A stretch of DNA of 64,000 nt from Costertonia aggregata. Its GTDB lineage: Bacteria; Bacteroidota; Bacteroidia; Flavobacteriales; Flavobacteriaceae. The stretch is from assembly GCF_013402795.1 (NCBI RefSeq), contig NZ_CP058595.1, positions 3,760,001 to 3,824,000 of the forward strand, in the 5' to 3' direction. Numbering within the stretch: the stretch's first letter is position 1; every line of letters starts with the position of its first letter. Below, piece by piece: positions 1-4,517 of the stretch. The notes under the pieces are model-generated. The model made no database searches and was not told the origin of the DNA. It was given only the letters and a program-made list of their open reading frames with translations. Position numbers and translations under genes: made by a program.

Positions 1-69
1 GCCAATCAATTAAAAAATGAGGAATTATTAAGGATTGCCGCTAGGATGGAATCTAATCGAAAAGACTGA
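1..69 (+). CDS. C-terminal end of an unidentified protein (partial)
   Basis: An open frame enters from the left edge and stops with TGA at 67-69, giving a 22-residue tail ending in ARMESNRKD. The next gene starts 9 bp later on the same strand. The fragment is too short to identify. It is listed because the frame is open, same-strand and tightly spaced to the following lipoprotein gene, which suggests the accessory cluster continues to the left of the window. Confidence 0.35.
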   Translation, partial: ANQLKNEELLRIAARMESNRKD

Positions 70-78
70 ATTAATCTG

Positions 79-564
79 ATGTACAAGATTTTTAAAATAC
101 TAGCAATAACAAGCACCTCTCTATTTATTATTTCCTGCAAGAAAGAAAACGACTTGGTAAAATTAAATAATTACGTGGTCGACAGAATTTGGATTACGGA
201 AAATCAAAACCAATATTATTTCTCAAGTGAAGATGACAAAGAATATTCCTGGTCTACGCTAAGAAAAACTGGTAACGGAAATGGACTTGATGATTGGACA
301 ACTCCATTTTCAATAGCAAGGGGAAATCCGAAATCAAACCCATATAAATCAAATACTTTGAATCCTGAAGGATGGACTTTTTCTGATTTTTTCAAAATTC
401 AGGGTGACACATTAATTCTCCAAAGAGAAGAAGATATAAATGCGGAAGATTTGATGATTTTTCATCTTGAAAAAGGAAAAGATACAATCATAGGAGTTTT
501 TTCTTATAACGCGCTTCTAGTGCGCAATAAATATGGAAATCGGATATGGAAATCGAAAAAATGA
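79..564 (+). CDS. hypothetical lipoprotein
   Basis: A 161-residue protein with a lipoprotein signal: a short charged N-terminus, a hydrophobic stretch at residues 5-19 and a lipobox ending in IISC with Cys20, followed by KKEND. It should be lipid-anchored to the inner or outer membrane facing the periplasm. The mature part is polar and rich in Trp, Asp and Asn, with no domain that I recognise. It is A+T rich, like the two other genes up to 2.65 kb, and unlike the housekeeping genes from 2.8 kb onward. A large structured inverted repeat begins 19 bp after the stop, the same arrangement as in the next two genes. Function unknown. Confidence 0.7.
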   Translation: MYKIFKILAITSTSLFIISCKKENDLVKLNNYVVDRIWITENQNQYYFSSEDDKEYSWSTLRKTGNGNGLDDWTTPFSIARGNPKSNPYKSNTLNPEGWTFSDFFKIQGDTLILQREEDINAEDLMIFHLEKGKDTIIGVFSYNALLVRNKYGNRIWKSKK

Positions 565-582
565 AATACGTTTACTAACACG

Positions 583-691
583 GTGTATAATTAAGTGCGG
601 GCGGAATTTCAAGCTGGAAATTCCTGCAATCAATTATCTTTAGTCTCAGGCGGACATTTTCCGTTGGAAAAGTCCGCAACTAATCATACAC
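583..691. repeat. structured inverted-repeat element A
   Basis: Two 18-nt arms at 583-600 and 674-691 are inverted repeats with 15 of 18 positions complementary. They enclose two further hairpins: 603-624 (perfect 8-bp stem GGAATTTC/GAAATTCC) and 651-676 (stem CGGAC/GTCCG extended by TTTTCC/GGAAAA with one bulged A). The element begins 19 bp after the lipoprotein stop. Its right half, 652-690, is closely matched by 1588-1626 in element B, and its right edge CATACAC-GAAAC recurs at 2768 after element C. It looks like a folded recombination or transcription-end structure placed after each accessory gene; no biochemical role can be assigned from sequence alone. Confidence 0.65.
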
Positions 692-716
692 GAAACGATA
701 ACGAAACCCTTTAAAA

Positions 717-827
717 TCACTCCAAAACTTGGGTAATGCACTCCAATAAACATTGCCCTGACGCATAAGGTACTATGGCGTCATCAGTACCGTGAAAAAT
801 AACCACAGGGCAAGTCACACCATTCAT
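717..827 (-). pseudogene. decayed copy of the 3' end of the alpha/beta hydrolase gene
   Basis: This segment matches the 3' end of the intact hydrolase gene (2801-2995) closely, including the stop codon and the region coding for the catalytic-Asp segment, but lacks about 83 bp corresponding to 2831-2913. The similarity extends past the stop into flanking sequence: 685-720 matches 2768-2804 including CATACAC and AACGAAACCCTTTAAAATCAC. It is therefore a truncated duplicate of the hydrolase gene end plus its downstream border. No intact frame remains. Transition differences relative to the intact copy suggest the duplication is not recent. Confidence 0.8.
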
Positions 828-849
828 AGCCGGATTGTTATTTTTTTAT

Positions 850-985
850 TTGCGCAACTGTTTTCGTGATTTTATTACAAGGGAAGAAACGGTTTTAGAA
901 AGCTGTTGTTTATGCGGCTGATGTTAAAAAACTTAGGGTGTCAAATAGTTAATTATTTGATTTCAACATTGAAATTATCGAATTT
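850..985. repeat. direct repeat, copy 1 (upstream of first membrane protein)
   Basis: The core at 863-936 (TTCGTGATTTTATTACAAGG onward) is repeated at 1662-1750 with about 12 bp of indel difference. Weaker similarity extends to about 985. Both copies sit between a structured element and the next accessory gene. Neither has an intact reading frame: one frame gives residues like DFITREE followed by a stop, another gives AADVKKLRV after an in-frame TAG. It may be a decayed gene fragment or a shared leader of the modules. Confidence 0.6.
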
Positions 986-1032
986 TAATATCAGAAAATA
1001 AAAATTGTTGAACTCATTTTATTTAAATCGTT

Positions 1033-1500
1033 ATGTATAATTTTGAAAATAAAATGTGGAAAAGAAATTGGTTCTGGATTATAGTTTCCCTCTTACTTTT
1101 CTTGACTTGTTATTTTCTAACGGTTGGACTTGTGAATAGTGGACTGATGGACACGACCAGAATTTTTATACTGGGTAATTTTATAAGCGTTCCAAACTTC
1201 TATACCTTTTTCACCTACCTACCTCTAGTGTTTTTTACCTTATTTCTTATTAAAGTCATTTTGGACCGATTAAAAAATCGAAACTCAAATAAGATTTTGG
1301 TATTCTTTACTTCGTTTTTTATTGTTCAAGTGACTTACTTAACTCTCAAAATCAATTGGATTAATGAAACAAATTCGCTGGACGAGAATACAATCAAACT
1401 TTGGCAGAACATTTTACATATTTCTTTGCCAATACAGTTTTTTCTAATTTGTGTTTTGGTAATTGTTAGCTGGAAAGGGGGAAAACGAAGTAGAACCTAA
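1033..1500 (+). CDS. hypothetical integral membrane protein
   Basis: A 155-residue protein with about four hydrophobic segments (roughly residues 13-33, 42-75 as a long or double segment, 87-106 and 127-147). The N-terminus is short and basic-aromatic (MWKRNWFW) and the C-terminus ends in a basic KGGKRSRT tail, predicted cytoplasmic. No family that I recognise. It is A+T rich and flanked by the repeat copy upstream (850-985) and by structured element B, which starts 11 bp after the stop. The start at the first ATG is preceded only by A+T-rich sequence, so a start at residue 8 (KMWKRN) is also possible. Confidence 0.6.
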   Translation: MYNFENKMWKRNWFWIIVSLLLFLTCYFLTVGLVNSGLMDTTRIFILGNFISVPNFYTFFTYLPLVFFTLFLIKVILDRLKNRNSNKILVFFTSFFIVQVTYLTLKINWINETNSLDENTIKLWQNILHISLPIQFFLICVLVIVSWKGGKRSRT

Positions 1501-1510
1501 AAAACTATAT

Positions 1511-1650
1511 ACAATACGGGCTATAATTCAATGCTAGATTCTAACTAACTTGAGACTTTGAAACAAACAAAACAACTGGATTCCGCACGACATTTTCCGT
1601 TTGGAAAGTCCGTAACGAAATCATCGCTAGGCCATTAATTTTCGTTGTTT
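1511..1650. repeat. structured inverted-repeat element B
   Basis: It follows the membrane-protein gene by 11 bp. Outer arms at 1522-1537 and 1625-1642 are imperfectly complementary (AATT-AATG-CTAG blocks). The core 1588-1626 (GACATTTTCCGTTTGGAAAG and flanks) is nearly the same as 652-690 of element A and folds into the same hairpin. The remainder of B differs from A, so this is a family of related, divergent elements rather than a recent copy. It occupies the first part of the 390-bp gap between the two membrane-protein genes. Confidence 0.55.
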
Positions 1651-1800
1651 GTACAGCTATATTCGTGATTTTATTACAAGGGAAGAAAAGGTTTTAGAAA
1701 GTTGTTGTCAATGCCGCTGATGTTAAGGTACTTCCTGTTAAAAACTTAAGATAAACCAATAGCCGATTGCTTGATTATGATTTTAAAATCCCCGAACTTG
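1649..1800. repeat. direct repeat, copy 2 (upstream of second membrane protein)
   Basis: Second copy of the repeat at 850-985. The best-conserved part is 1662-1750. It directly follows element B and precedes the gene at 1891, so the order element, repeat, gene is the same as in the preceding module, except that there the hydrolase fragment is interposed. No intact frame on either strand. Confidence 0.6.
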
Positions 1801-1890
1801 GTTAACCGTACGATAAAAATCATTTAAACGAATTTTATCTTAATCATTGGCAATAATTTGCTCAAACTCAATTGAACTTATTGGTAATAT

Positions 1891-2646
1891 ATGTTTATAG
1901 AAAATAAATTAATAAAAACAATTCTACCTTTTATTGGAATCACTTTAATAATTTGTGGCTATTTAAAACTATCAATTTTCTATGGCCATTTTGATATTGA
2001 GATTTACAATTATTTAGAGTTTACAGAAATATTAACTCTATTTATGCCAAATATTATCAGGAATATAGGAATCATTGCGATTGCTTTTTTTATTGTTTAT
2101 CTGCTAATTGGGAATAAGGATATCGAACGAAACACAATGCTACATAATGCTATAGTGGAATCAAATACATTTTGGAAAAGGTTAAAATTATTATTTAAAT
2201 TAAATCCACTTTTAGCTTGGTTGTCACTTTTTGTTATCATTATATCAATTATATATTCAATATGGTTCCCTGAAAAGTTAGAAAGTTACATTTTGAGCAG
2301 TATAGTTATTCCAGCAATGTTCTTTTTCAACATATTGGATTTTGAGTTTAGAAGAAAATATAAATTATTGAATGACAAGAAACCTAATTCTTCACGTTCG
2401 AATTTAGCTTTTGTTATTTTTCTATTCTTGATATATACTGTTAATTCTACATATAAAGAGATTAAACAGGTTCGAAAAACAAACAAAAAAATTGAATTTA
2501 CTTATCAAGGTAAATCTATAAAAACTAGTAAACAGGATTTTTATTTAGGTCAAACAAAAAATTACCTTTTCATAAAAAACTTCGACAAGAAAAAAGTCTC
2601 TGTTTATAAAATGAGCTTGATTACTGAATTCGAAACATACGATTAA
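1891..2646 (+). CDS. hypothetical membrane protein with C-terminal soluble domain
   Basis: A 251-residue protein with about five hydrophobic segments (about residues 11-30, 48-71, 107-126, 131-148 and 170-184), then a C-terminal soluble part of about 65 residues rich in Lys (TNKKIEFTYQGKSIKTSKQ and a following KNYLFIKNFDKKKVSVYKM strand pattern). The tail looks like a small beta-rich domain on the membrane anchor. No family that I recognise. Strongly A+T rich. It is followed after about 34 bp by inverted-repeat element C, the third repetition of the gene-plus-element arrangement in this region. Confidence 0.6.
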   Translation: MFIENKLIKTILPFIGITLIICGYLKLSIFYGHFDIEIYNYLEFTEILTLFMPNIIRNIGIIAIAFFIVYLLIGNKDIERNTMLHNAIVESNTFWKRLKLLFKLNPLLAWLSLFVIIISIIYSIWFPEKLESYILSSIVIPAMFFFNILDFEFRRKYKLLNDKKPNSSRSNLAFVIFLFLIYTVNSTYKEIKQVRKTNKKIEFTYQGKSIKTSKQDFYLGQTKNYLFIKNFDKKKVSVYKMSLITEFETYD

Positions 2647-2679
2647 TATAAAACTGATGCCAACAATATTGATAAAATA

Positions 2680-2762
2680 TAGCTATTAAAAGCTTTTCGA
2701 GAGGTTTTTGTTTATTTAAAAAGTACACAAAATCCGAAAAGTTAGTGTATTTTTATAGGCTA
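2680..2762. repeat. structured inverted-repeat element C
   Basis: Arms at 2680-2699 and 2735-2762 pair in two blocks: TAGC-TAT-AAAA (2680-2691) with TTTT-ATA-GGCTA (2750-2762), and CTTTTCG (2693-2699) with CGAAAAG (2735-2741). The right border 2768-2800 (CATACACAAAAC then TATAACGAAACCC) matches the border after element A and leads directly into the hydrolase stop codon. It may also end transcription from both sides, since the genes converge here. Confidence 0.45.
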
Positions 2763-2800
2763 CGTTTCATACACAAAACCTATAACGAAACCCTTTAAAA

Positions 2801-3598
2801 TCACTTCAAAACTCGGGCAATGCTCTCCAAATATTCCGGGAATTCAATCAAGTTGTTATGTCCGCCACCTTTTATGGTAAATATTTGTTTTTGAGCGTGT
2901 GGGACGGCTTCATATAAACTTTGCCCCGACGCATAAGGTACTATGGCGTCATCGGTACCGTGAAAAACAACCACAGGGCAGGTCACACCATTCATGAATT
3001 CATGGGATTTTAGCTTGTATTTCATCAACAGGTCTACCGGCAAAAAAGGAAATCGGCTTTTGGCAACATCAACCAAACTGTAATAAGGGGTTTCCAAAAT
3101 AAGTTGTTTGGGTGCGTTTGTCGAGGCCAGTTGGGTCGCAATGCCCGTCCCCAATGACCTACCATATAGGGTAATCGCCTTTTCATCATAAGTTTTTAGG
3201 GCATACGCATAAAAAAGTTGTGCATCGGCATGTAAGGCAGCTTCACTGAGTTTCCCCGTGCTTTTCCCATAAGTACGGTAATCCATTATAATGACGTCGT
3301 AACCCTGTTGCACAAAAAACTGGGCTATCTCGCCCCAACGGGAAAGGTCGCCCGCATTACCATGAAAATAGAGCAAAACCCCTTTAGGGGCTGTACCCTT
3401 AAAATGCAAGCCGTTCAATACCGCACCATCCGGTGCGGTCAAATTGAATTCATGGTGGGGTACCGCAAACGAATATTGATAATCCTGTGGCAGTTTAGAA
3501 GGTAAAAAAATGAGTTTTTCCTGTAAAAAATAAAGCATGACTGTTATGAGTAGGTAAAATATTAATAGGTTACGGGCAATTTTCTTAAACCTTCGCAT
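2801..3598 (-). CDS. membrane-anchored alpha/beta hydrolase
   Basis: A 265-residue serine hydrolase of the alpha/beta fold (S33/Bem46-like). One N-terminal membrane segment (residues 10-25) anchors a catalytic domain that probably faces the periplasm. Visible motifs are the oxyanion turn FHGNAGD (about 78-84), the nucleophile elbow GRSLGTG with the Ser at about 148, the Asp in HGTDDAIVPY and the His in GGGHNNL. Substrate unknown; relatives are annotated as esterases or peptidases. Its start overlaps the end of the upstream paralogue by 14 bp, so the two are co-transcribed. The last 200 bp of the gene and its downstream border exist as a decayed second copy at 685-827. Confidence 0.85.
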   Translation of the reverse strand: MRRFKKIARNLLIFYLLITVMLYFLQEKLIFLPSKLPQDYQYSFAVPHHEFNLTAPDGAVLNGLHFKGTAPKGVLLYFHGNAGDLSRWGEIAQFFVQQGYDVIIMDYRTYGKSTGKLSEAALHADAQLFYAYALKTYDEKAITLYGRSLGTGIATQLASTNAPKQLILETPYYSLVDVAKSRFPFLPVDLLMKYKLKSHEFMNGVTCPVVVFHGTDDAIVPYASGQSLYEAVPHAQKQIFTIKGGGHNNLIEFPEYLESIARVLK

Positions 3599-4460
3599 TT
3601 TTTGGTTTTGTAGCGTGCTGTACCGATATGCTGGAGCCTTTCAAATCAACGACTTTTGGTTTGGTCGTAATGATATCGCCCAACATTTTATGGTATGATT
3701 CAAAGGTATTCAAATCTTTATGACCGCCACCTATGATAGTATGTAATGTAGTTTGTTTGGGCTTTATCTTGGATAGTTTTACACTGGTTTTATAGGGAAT
3801 AAGCCTATCGTCGGTACCATGTATAATGTGGATGGGGCAGTTTACATACTTGAGCCATTTGTACGTGGGCATCGGAAACTTGATCAATAATGAAAGTGGC
3901 ATAAAGGGTACATAGCGTTTGGCCACTTTGCTAAGACTGTAATACGGCGCATCTAAAATGAGCATCCTGGGATGGTTCATAGAGGCCAATTTGGTCGCAA
4001 AACCCGAGCCCAAAGAGCGCCCATAAAGAATGATATACTTTTCGTTTACATTTTCCCTTATCTTGTTGTAGACCACCTGTAAGTCTCTTTTGATCGCCTT
4101 TTGCGTTCGCCGCCCGGTACTTTTGCCAAACCCTCGATAATCGACCATGATAACATCGTAGCCGTGCCTGGTAAAATCGACCGCGAATTTGCCCCAACCC
4201 TTTATGCTTTTTGAGTTGCCCTTGAGGTAAAAAACCACTCCTTTGGGTCTTTGGGTCTTAAAACGGAGCCCATTGATAATGGCCCCATCCCTGGTCTCGA
4301 TATTGTACTCCTCAATTTCCTGATTTTCATAATAAAATTCAAAATCCTTGGCCAGCTTTTCGGGTTTGAACATCAAGAAGTCCTGCAAGAAATATACAAG
4401 CGTATTTATGGCCAGATATATCAAGATGATTACGGTAAGAATGTACTTCCAATCGGCCAT
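3585..4460 (-). CDS. membrane-anchored alpha/beta hydrolase, paralogue
   Basis: A 291-residue paralogue of the next gene, with the same N-terminal membrane segment, the nucleophile motif GRSLGSG, the Asp in HGTDDRLIPY and the His in GGGHKDL. The usual HG of the oxyanion motif is replaced here by KG (YLKGNSKSIKGWG), which may alter activity. It has a polar C-terminal extension of about 20 residues ending in KPKNAKV. I chose ATG at 4460 (MADWKYIL): an earlier in-frame ATG at 4505 lies inside the upstream terminator hairpin. First gene of a two-gene unit with the 2801-3598 hydrolase. Confidence 0.85.
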   Translation of the reverse strand: MADWKYILTVIILIYLAINTLVYFLQDFLMFKPEKLAKDFEFYYENQEIEEYNIETRDGAIINGLRFKTQRPKGVVFYLKGNSKSIKGWGKFAVDFTRHGYDVIMVDYRGFGKSTGRRTQKAIKRDLQVVYNKIRENVNEKYIILYGRSLGSGFATKLASMNHPRMLILDAPYYSLSKVAKRYVPFMPLSLLIKFPMPTYKWLKYVNCPIHIIHGTDDRLIPYKTSVKLSKIKPKQTTLHTIIGGGHKDLNTFESYHKMLGDIITTKPKVVDLKGSSISVQHATKPKNAKV

Positions 4461-4489
4461 CGCATTTAATCGGTTTACATACAATGTAC

Positions 4490-4517
4490 AAAAAAAGCGC
4501 CTCATGGCGCTTTTTTA
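4490..4517 (-). terminator. rho-independent terminator of the 4584-5096 gene
   Basis: Stem AAGCGCC/GGCGCTT with a 4-nt loop, followed on the minus strand by a run of T. It lies 67 bp after the stop of the secreted-protein gene and just before the start of the hydrolase pair, separating the two transcripts. Confidence 0.8.

Follow-up and report, generated by a model that had tools for sequence, protein, structure and literature searches.

We analysed a window of 64,000 nucleotides (nt) from Costertonia aggregata (contig NZ_CP058595.1, positions 3,760,001 to 3,824,000), which carries at its left end three open reading frames (ORFs) on the plus strand (79-564, 1033-1500 and 1891-2646), each followed at a distance of 12-15 bp by the start of a palindromic element (A, B and C respectively). 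A first-pass annotation of this DNA had proposed that such gene-plus-inverted-repeat modules form a cassette-like mobile unit in Flavobacteria. The modules were confirmed at all three ORFs, with model-based borders slightly different from those first drawn, and related genomes support the proposal: the sites are widespread, follow genes and are found on identical, precise units in different contexts. We conclude that the window modules are very probably gene cassettes of an integron-like system of Flavobacteria.

Units and duplicated flanks at the window locus

The units, their genes and their elements are as follows.

1-700, plus strand: in-window part of cassette A, comprising the end of an ORF of 84 amino acids (-185 to 69), the gene at 79-564 and element A
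79-564, plus strand: cassette gene 1, 161 amino acids, no Pfam or PHROGs match
577-700, plus strand: element A, an attC-like folding site (90.1 bits, E 2e-16 in 257 kb, with a model trained without element A)
1030-1636, plus strand: cassette B, start at 1030 tentative; proposed start GTTATGTATAAT
1033-1500, plus strand: cassette gene 2, 155 amino acids, resembling a membrane protein by eye, with neither a PHROGs match nor a Pfam match above cut-off
1513-1636, plus strand: element B, probably decayed (21.7 bits, E 0.054), with a hairpin core in common with element A
1846-2783, plus strand: cassette C, start at 1846 probable, aligning with the A start in the duplicated flanks
1891-2646, plus strand: cassette gene 3, 251 amino acids, resembling a membrane protein by eye, with neither a PHROGs match nor a Pfam match above cut-off
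2662-2783, plus strand: element C, probably decayed (16.4 bits, E 0.71), its left border resembling that of element L039 by eye

The borders of the three elements were set by a covariance model of 28 elements from other genomes, none of them from the window. Element A scores as a clear member of this site family and has copies 87-94 % identical in four other genera by BLAST; elements B and C are probably decayed members, B reaching an E-value of 0.86 in a whole-genome search. The hairpin core previously noted in both A and B is real (653-683 against 1589-1619, 87 % identical), and a pattern derived from it occurs twice in the window against a chance expectation of 0.01. The right border that A and C were thought to have in common turned out to be mainly duplicated flank, most of it deriving from a hydrolase gene whose 3′ end is partially copied there (693-827 against 2777-2995). 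Folded as plain single strands of the plus strand, element A was stable beyond chance (z -3.39) and elements B (z 0.35) and C (z -0.97) were not.

In integrons a cassette runs from just behind the G in the GTT of one site to the end of its own site, and its two ends are mutually complementary. Cassette A starts at -183 (G000:C1:3759818), left of the window, and its start GTTAGCAAACAT matches the reverse complement of its end GTTAGTAAAC at 9 of 10 bases and the fixed A described below, a pairing equalled in 6 of 1,000 shuffles of the upstream region. Starts of B (1030) and C (1846) picked by eye from complementarity alone were rejected on that ground, a scored search favouring other positions at chance level. 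The C start is retained because it aligns with the A start in the duplicated flanks; the B start does not, lying about a dozen columns off the starts of A and C in the flank alignment, and is therefore tentative. The flanking features are listed here.

693-827, no strand assigned: partial, internally deleted copy of the hydrolase gene 3′ end, right insertion flank (94 % against 2914-2995, 89 % against 2777-2830)
841-934, no strand assigned: second copy of the left flanking gene's 3′ end (..ILLQGKKRF, then stop), flanking unit B on the left, from repeat comparison and flank alignment
1640-1733, no strand assigned: third copy of the left flanking gene's 3′ end, flanking unit C on the left, from the same two comparisons
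2801-3598, minus strand: alpha/beta hydrolase gene, right chromosomal flank (Hydrolase_4, E 3.2e-24)

The 3′ end of the left flanking gene is thus present in three places (about -396 to -303, 841-934 and 1640-1733; 85-87 % identical) and that of the hydrolase gene in two, after A and after C, so that one intergenic region is present in copies that hold three different genes, each with its element. Alignment of the flanks continues up to the unit starts for A and C and is poorer for B. To the right of element A the sequence reads ..AAACG|ATAACGAAAC, and another lone element of the same genome (3610822) ends ..AACCG|ATAACGAAAC; this likeness of borders fits insertion at secondary sites, by analogy with IntI1, which is reported to use attG secondary sites (PMC12901181). 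In relatives, none of them close (43-65 % protein identity), 37 loci of the hydrolase were compared and no element was present at any. As the first-pass annotation stated, there is no integrase in the window; the genome does encode a recombinase of this system, 2.0 Mb away beside an array. On the right, 2801-4505 comprises two adjacent, slightly overlapping minus-strand alpha/beta hydrolase genes, both Hydrolase_4.

The site family and the unit rule

The site is a foldable sequence of about 125 nt. The covariance model at E ≤ 0.001, scoring at most 36 candidates per genome, identified it in 63 of 98 genomes, namely that of C. aggregata, 54 of 59 other genomes of its family and 8 of 38 genomes of the order's other families, so the elements are not confined to this locus. 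BLAST with element A gave matches in 20 of 99 genomes, its own included, and a phylum-wide search at E ≤ 1e-5 found sites in 53 of 296 genomes (again including its own), some of them in other classes. Among nine complete or near-complete genomes, two held at least 100 matches, six held 8-49 and one held none. Outside the window locus the sites stand in one-directional arrays. The real array regions gave 240 full-length sites in 0.54 Mb; after dinucleotide shuffling, 1.6 Mb of such sequence gave no match.

Each unit begins with GTT and seven further bases, which form the reverse complement of the unit's own end (seven bases and AAC). At least six of the seven variable bases matched in 151 of 192 units of a first set, for which 236 of 254 model matches were full-length and used, and in 232 of 291 units of a larger set; the match per position was 0.70-0.88 for start and end of the same unit vs 0.29-0.55 for shuffled partners. 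Pairing between the two boxes of a single site was rejected, with 15 of 189 sites matching at six or more of the seven bases. The elements follow same-strand genes, a median of 15 bp separating stop codon and site and the longest ORF lying on the strand of the site in 211 of 217 rule-keeping units. A mismatch is fixed at position 11, where 342 of 344 starts have A and 304 of 351 ends have the facing C; on the bottom strand it becomes a G-T pair. The lack of a canonical attC core pair (RYYYAAC/GTTRRRY) noted in the window extends to the family as a rarity: in a count for which GTT and AAC themselves served to place the boxes, GTTRRRY was present in 14 of 345 right boxes and RYYYAAC in 18 of 351 left boxes.

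Predicted folding energies differ between the strands. Among 212 non-redundant sites that keep the unit rule, folded in circular form, the bottom strand was the more stable in 204 with DNA parameters and in 209 with RNA parameters, and G-T pairs favoured the bottom strand (4.33 per site vs 0.58). Random pieces of the same regions displayed no such bias (bottom strand better in 118 of 270), and the bottom strand fell more than two standard deviations below its own shuffles in 30 of 30 sites. The circular form of element A gave -24.3 kcal/mol for the bottom and -23.1 kcal/mol for the top strand, while B and C fold poorly. The functional strand of attC has been described as the bottom one (PMC2727003).

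Sequence traces of movement were found in a genome with two arrays (G014), situated about 0.5 Mb apart, which have in common cassettes 100 % identical over 558 and 1,418 bp, with different neighbours on both sides and borders at G|TT. Further identical or similar pairs extend over 704 bp within one array and over 741 bp. We counted 92 similar unit pairs, many of which are copies of one cassette of about 558 bp and do not represent 92 independent events. These comparisons support movement of cassettes as precise units, which the recombinase described below would carry out.

A Pfam search with 100 cassette proteins, chosen among the 189 that could be located (192 non-redundant), gave matches to 54 families, those listed including DUF6090 (7 proteins), WapI, SUKH-type immunity proteins, TPR proteins and transporters. 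One cassette protein is a Septu-type PtuA ATPase, and the array of C. aggregata encodes a Gp49-like protein and an HTH protein, likely a toxin-antitoxin pair.

A number of further observations concern the distribution of the sites. The C. aggregata genome contains a second array-like cluster (G000:C1:2448474-2471217) without an array-type recombinase. Five of its elements (L080 and G000:C1:1748267-2470436) are followed by the same or nearly the same (G)TT(G)TCGGAAATGCCCACGGGC.., which seems to be one short, perhaps gene-less cassette repeated in its arrays. An exact 19-base left border lies among phage-like genes on a contig of the IMG/VR database (L248:8998-9112), where the match to the whole element is weak (29.7 bits, with strong composition bias); this being the one such stretch in IMG/VR, viral carriage was not retained as a candidate.

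The recombinase found beside the arrays

Screening 19 array regions by motif identified a tyrosine recombinase ORF in 14, with the nearest site at 543-2,521 bp in 13 of them and at 8.7 kb in the other (G034); the recombinase of C. aggregata was missed by motif and found beside its array. These regions were partly chosen for a nearby recombinase, and a profile of 19 array recombinases run against 10 genomes is the fairer check. It gave ten matches above 380 bits (386-573 bits), each no more than 2.1 kb from a site. The other 22 matches scored 201 bits or less; one is a gene within an array, and they otherwise had no site nearby among the sites listed. One genome (G023) had neither sites nor an array-type recombinase.

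The catalytic residues are invariant in all 19 array recombinases. All 19 have a spacing of 64 residues from KGxKDR to HxLRH; for canonical IntI of the phylum it is 107, in each of the 8 ORFs where both motifs could be read (7 distinct genes). The array recombinases are thus 43 residues shorter than canonical IntI at the position of its extra domain, and residues 178-248 (71 residues) of the IntI chain 2a3v are answered by 28 residues of one array integrase (G024). By these alignments the array recombinase is without the IntI additional domain (I2). The cut-off of the IntI model TIGR02249 was exceeded in none of 99 genomes; an array integrase scored 192 bits with it (cut-off 265) and 196-206 bits with a XerA-type model. 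Its predicted structure (mean predicted local distance difference test score, pLDDT, 81.5; predicted template modelling score 0.56) matched 2a3v with Z 20.9 and a root-mean-square deviation (rmsd) of 3.3 over 255 residues, and XerA with Z 23.2 and rmsd 14.4. In an unrooted tree of 38 sequences canonical IntI formed one clade (100/100), the array recombinases lying across a branch with support 87/78; the tree contains one Xer row and five IntI rows shortened by motif, and 7 of 21 IntI and 6 of 7 Xer loci were dropped as no ORF was recovered by motif.

Canonical IntI scored over the cut-off in 57 of 198 genomes of the phylum, a single one of them belonging to the class of C. aggregata and none to its order or family; it is common in other classes of the phylum and nearly absent from this one. 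The present type of site was absent from all 26 loci around 22 canonical IntI genes, and canonical IntI was accordingly rejected as driver of these sites in families where both occur. A de novo chain search for canonical arrays near IntI found none in 14 loci and was uninformative, reversed controls giving chance chains. Among relatives of the array recombinase, a Persicobacter plasmid (L179) encodes one at full length and 42 % identity, the present kind of site being absent within 12 kb, and the nearest plasmid relatives fetched outside Bacteroidota (L180 and L182) adjoin IS91 transposase genes.

Fifteen of 19 integrases carry an N-terminal extension, which the short ones, including that of C. 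aggregata, do not have. Modelled alone (pLDDT 84.9), this domain gave a structural comparison whose top seven rows are N-terminal domains of XPB (Z 5.8-6.4, rmsd 1.8-2.4 over 54-57 residues); the HARP domain of SMARCAL1 matched at Z 3.6, and all of these are weak, at Z under 8. Foldseek with the domain gave nothing at E < 0.001, and Pfam HARP had no match in the ten integrases scanned. XPB/HARP-type domains bind unusual DNA structures.

Ten of 15 regions have, at 30-120 bp from the integrase, a candidate start for the first cassette recognised; a palindrome just before this point is common to three genomes (G009, G021 and both arrays of G040). In four congeners (G014, G391, G389 and G392) the DNA is common up to GTATATAACNA|GTT and differs thereafter; between G014 and G391 homology ends 122-124 bp after the integrase stop. 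These features point to an attI-like site beside the integrase at the array heads.

Interpretation and comparison with known systems

Recombination on folded single-stranded DNA is best known from integrons. In the system proposed here a cassette would consist of one or a few genes and one palindromic site of about 125 nt, whose bottom strand appears built to fold. A dedicated I2-less tyrosine recombinase, XerA/IntI-like and encoded beside the arrays, would cut the folded bottom strand at G^TT, and the cassette would leave as a circle joining its two complementary ends. This circle could re-enter at the attI-like site beside the integrase, at other cassette sites and, more rarely, at secondary chromosomal sites. 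The window locus may represent one such secondary site, a region between a membrane-protein gene and a hydrolase gene in diverged tandem copies, three of which hold a different gene and element each, A being well preserved and B and C probably decayed. The conjectural parts of this scheme are catalysis, the circular intermediate, the use of single strands and the origin of the flank copies; the site family, the arrays, the rule for unit ends, the identical cassettes with exact borders in different contexts, the conserved attI-like site, the adjacency of the recombinase, its want of the IntI-specific insertion and the strand bias in folding are read directly from sequence.

Several observations weigh against this interpretation. 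At the window itself the model scores of elements B and C are weak, as are the starts of both units, their end complementarity being equalled in 699 of 1,000 shuffles for B and, taken alone, in 163 of 1,000 for C, both at chance level. The rule for unit ends is kept less in a number of regions (2 of 5 units in G056a, 5 of 8 in G034, 2 of 4 in G126 and 0 of 1 in G185), and outside the family the sites are too few to judge (1 of 2 in G143, 0 of 1 in G257). One genome (G059) has 21 sites without an array-type recombinase, and another (G391) has an integrase and an attI-like site with one recognisable cassette site in 80 kb. Of the six class 1 integron cassettes for which a boundary was found (2 of 8 coding sequences gave none), two also pair over 12-13 bp, and the longer R box was rejected as a unique mark or sole evidence. 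Finally, movement is read from sequence traces, recombination itself being deduced from them.

The system works like an integron yet departs from one in two defining features, the IntI additional domain and the attC core, and is for this reason not filed as one. We think it somewhat probable that it constitutes a separate family of integron-like platforms, common throughout Flavobacteriaceae and occurring in other Bacteroidota, in which a recombinase that lost I2 or never possessed it acts on folded bottom strands; in its place many members may use an N-terminal domain of putative XPB/HARP-like fold that binds DNA structures. If so, cassette capture would have arisen a second time, or this family would be a living relative of the state that preceded I2. 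The I2 helix has been held to be the innovation behind single-strand recombination (PMC7790495), an idea that an I2-less cassette system of integron scale would make directly testable. For Bacteroidetes proper the IntegronFinder 2.0 account lists, apart from integrases that have no cassettes, one complete integron, that of Salinibacter ruber (PMC9024848). If the interpretation given here is correct, an important family of marine bacteria holds large, mobile, mostly uncharacterised cassette pools that current finders miss. We found no description of such Flavobacteriaceae arrays in the open-access literature (bioRxiv lay outside the scope), which is weak evidence of novelty.

A possible, if less favoured, alternative is that these are a divergent branch of true integrons whose integrase descends from IntI with the additional domain lost or shrunk, a matter of descent and naming that is compatible with the cassette system proposed above. 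The architecture is the same, the integrase reaches 192 bits with the IntI model, 2a3v is among its best structural matches, and the insertion is described as not fully conserved in the integron-like subgroup of a survey (PMC8138268). However, the integrase scores higher with the XerA-type model, the canonical IntI clade does not include the array recombinases (87/78, in the unrooted tree with its one Xer row) and the site core differs.

Spread by a transposon, or by homologous recombination between repeated sites, in place of a site-specific integrase appears very improbable. The duplicated window flanks do need some other process, and the neighbouring IS91 transposase genes of the plasmid recombinases outside Bacteroidota would agree with it, but cassette borders fall at GTT on both ends, strong recombinases stand at the array heads, and four congeners whose first units differ all have an attI-like site that stops at G|TT. 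Still more remote is the reading of the elements as RNA hairpins (terminators or 3′ regulatory structures) travelling with genes by chance, to which their position close behind genes would conform: a function as RNA would call for better folding of the top strand, so the bottom bias of 204 sites speaks against it and against ordinary terminators, the strand opposite the transcript folds better even with RNA parameters, the far start of the unit pairs with its end, and Rfam at gathering threshold had no match in 12 kb.

The cassette system may be set beside four known ones. The IS91-associated tyrosine recombinases of alphaproteobacterial plasmids are 34-39 % identical to the array type over the recombinase core; they differ in adjoining IS91 transposase, with no site of the present type in the two loci fetched. 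XerA and Xer recombinases provide the best sequence and structure matches and likewise have no additional domain; the other recombinases of the same genomes, in contrast, score about 182-201 bits or less with the array-recombinase profile vs 386-573 for the array type, and many array recombinases have the extra N-terminal domain. The window modules and the cluster at 2448474-2471217, with no array-type recombinase nearby, recall the clusters of attC sites lacking an integron integrase termed CALIN (PMC9024848), but their sites are of a new type and a recombinase does stand beside another cluster of this genome. From integrons the system differs in a recombinase without the IntI additional domain, in an R box of GTT and seven bases that has no GTTRRRY core and a fixed mismatch at position 11, and in an integrase oriented as the cassettes in 13 of 15 regions (divergent in C. 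aggregata and G001). With integrons it has in common the cassette made of a gene and a foldable site, the G|TT border, complementary unit ends, one-directional arrays of up to at least 100 sites, the bottom-strand folding bias, an attI-like site, a likely toxin-antitoxin cassette and repeated identical cassettes.

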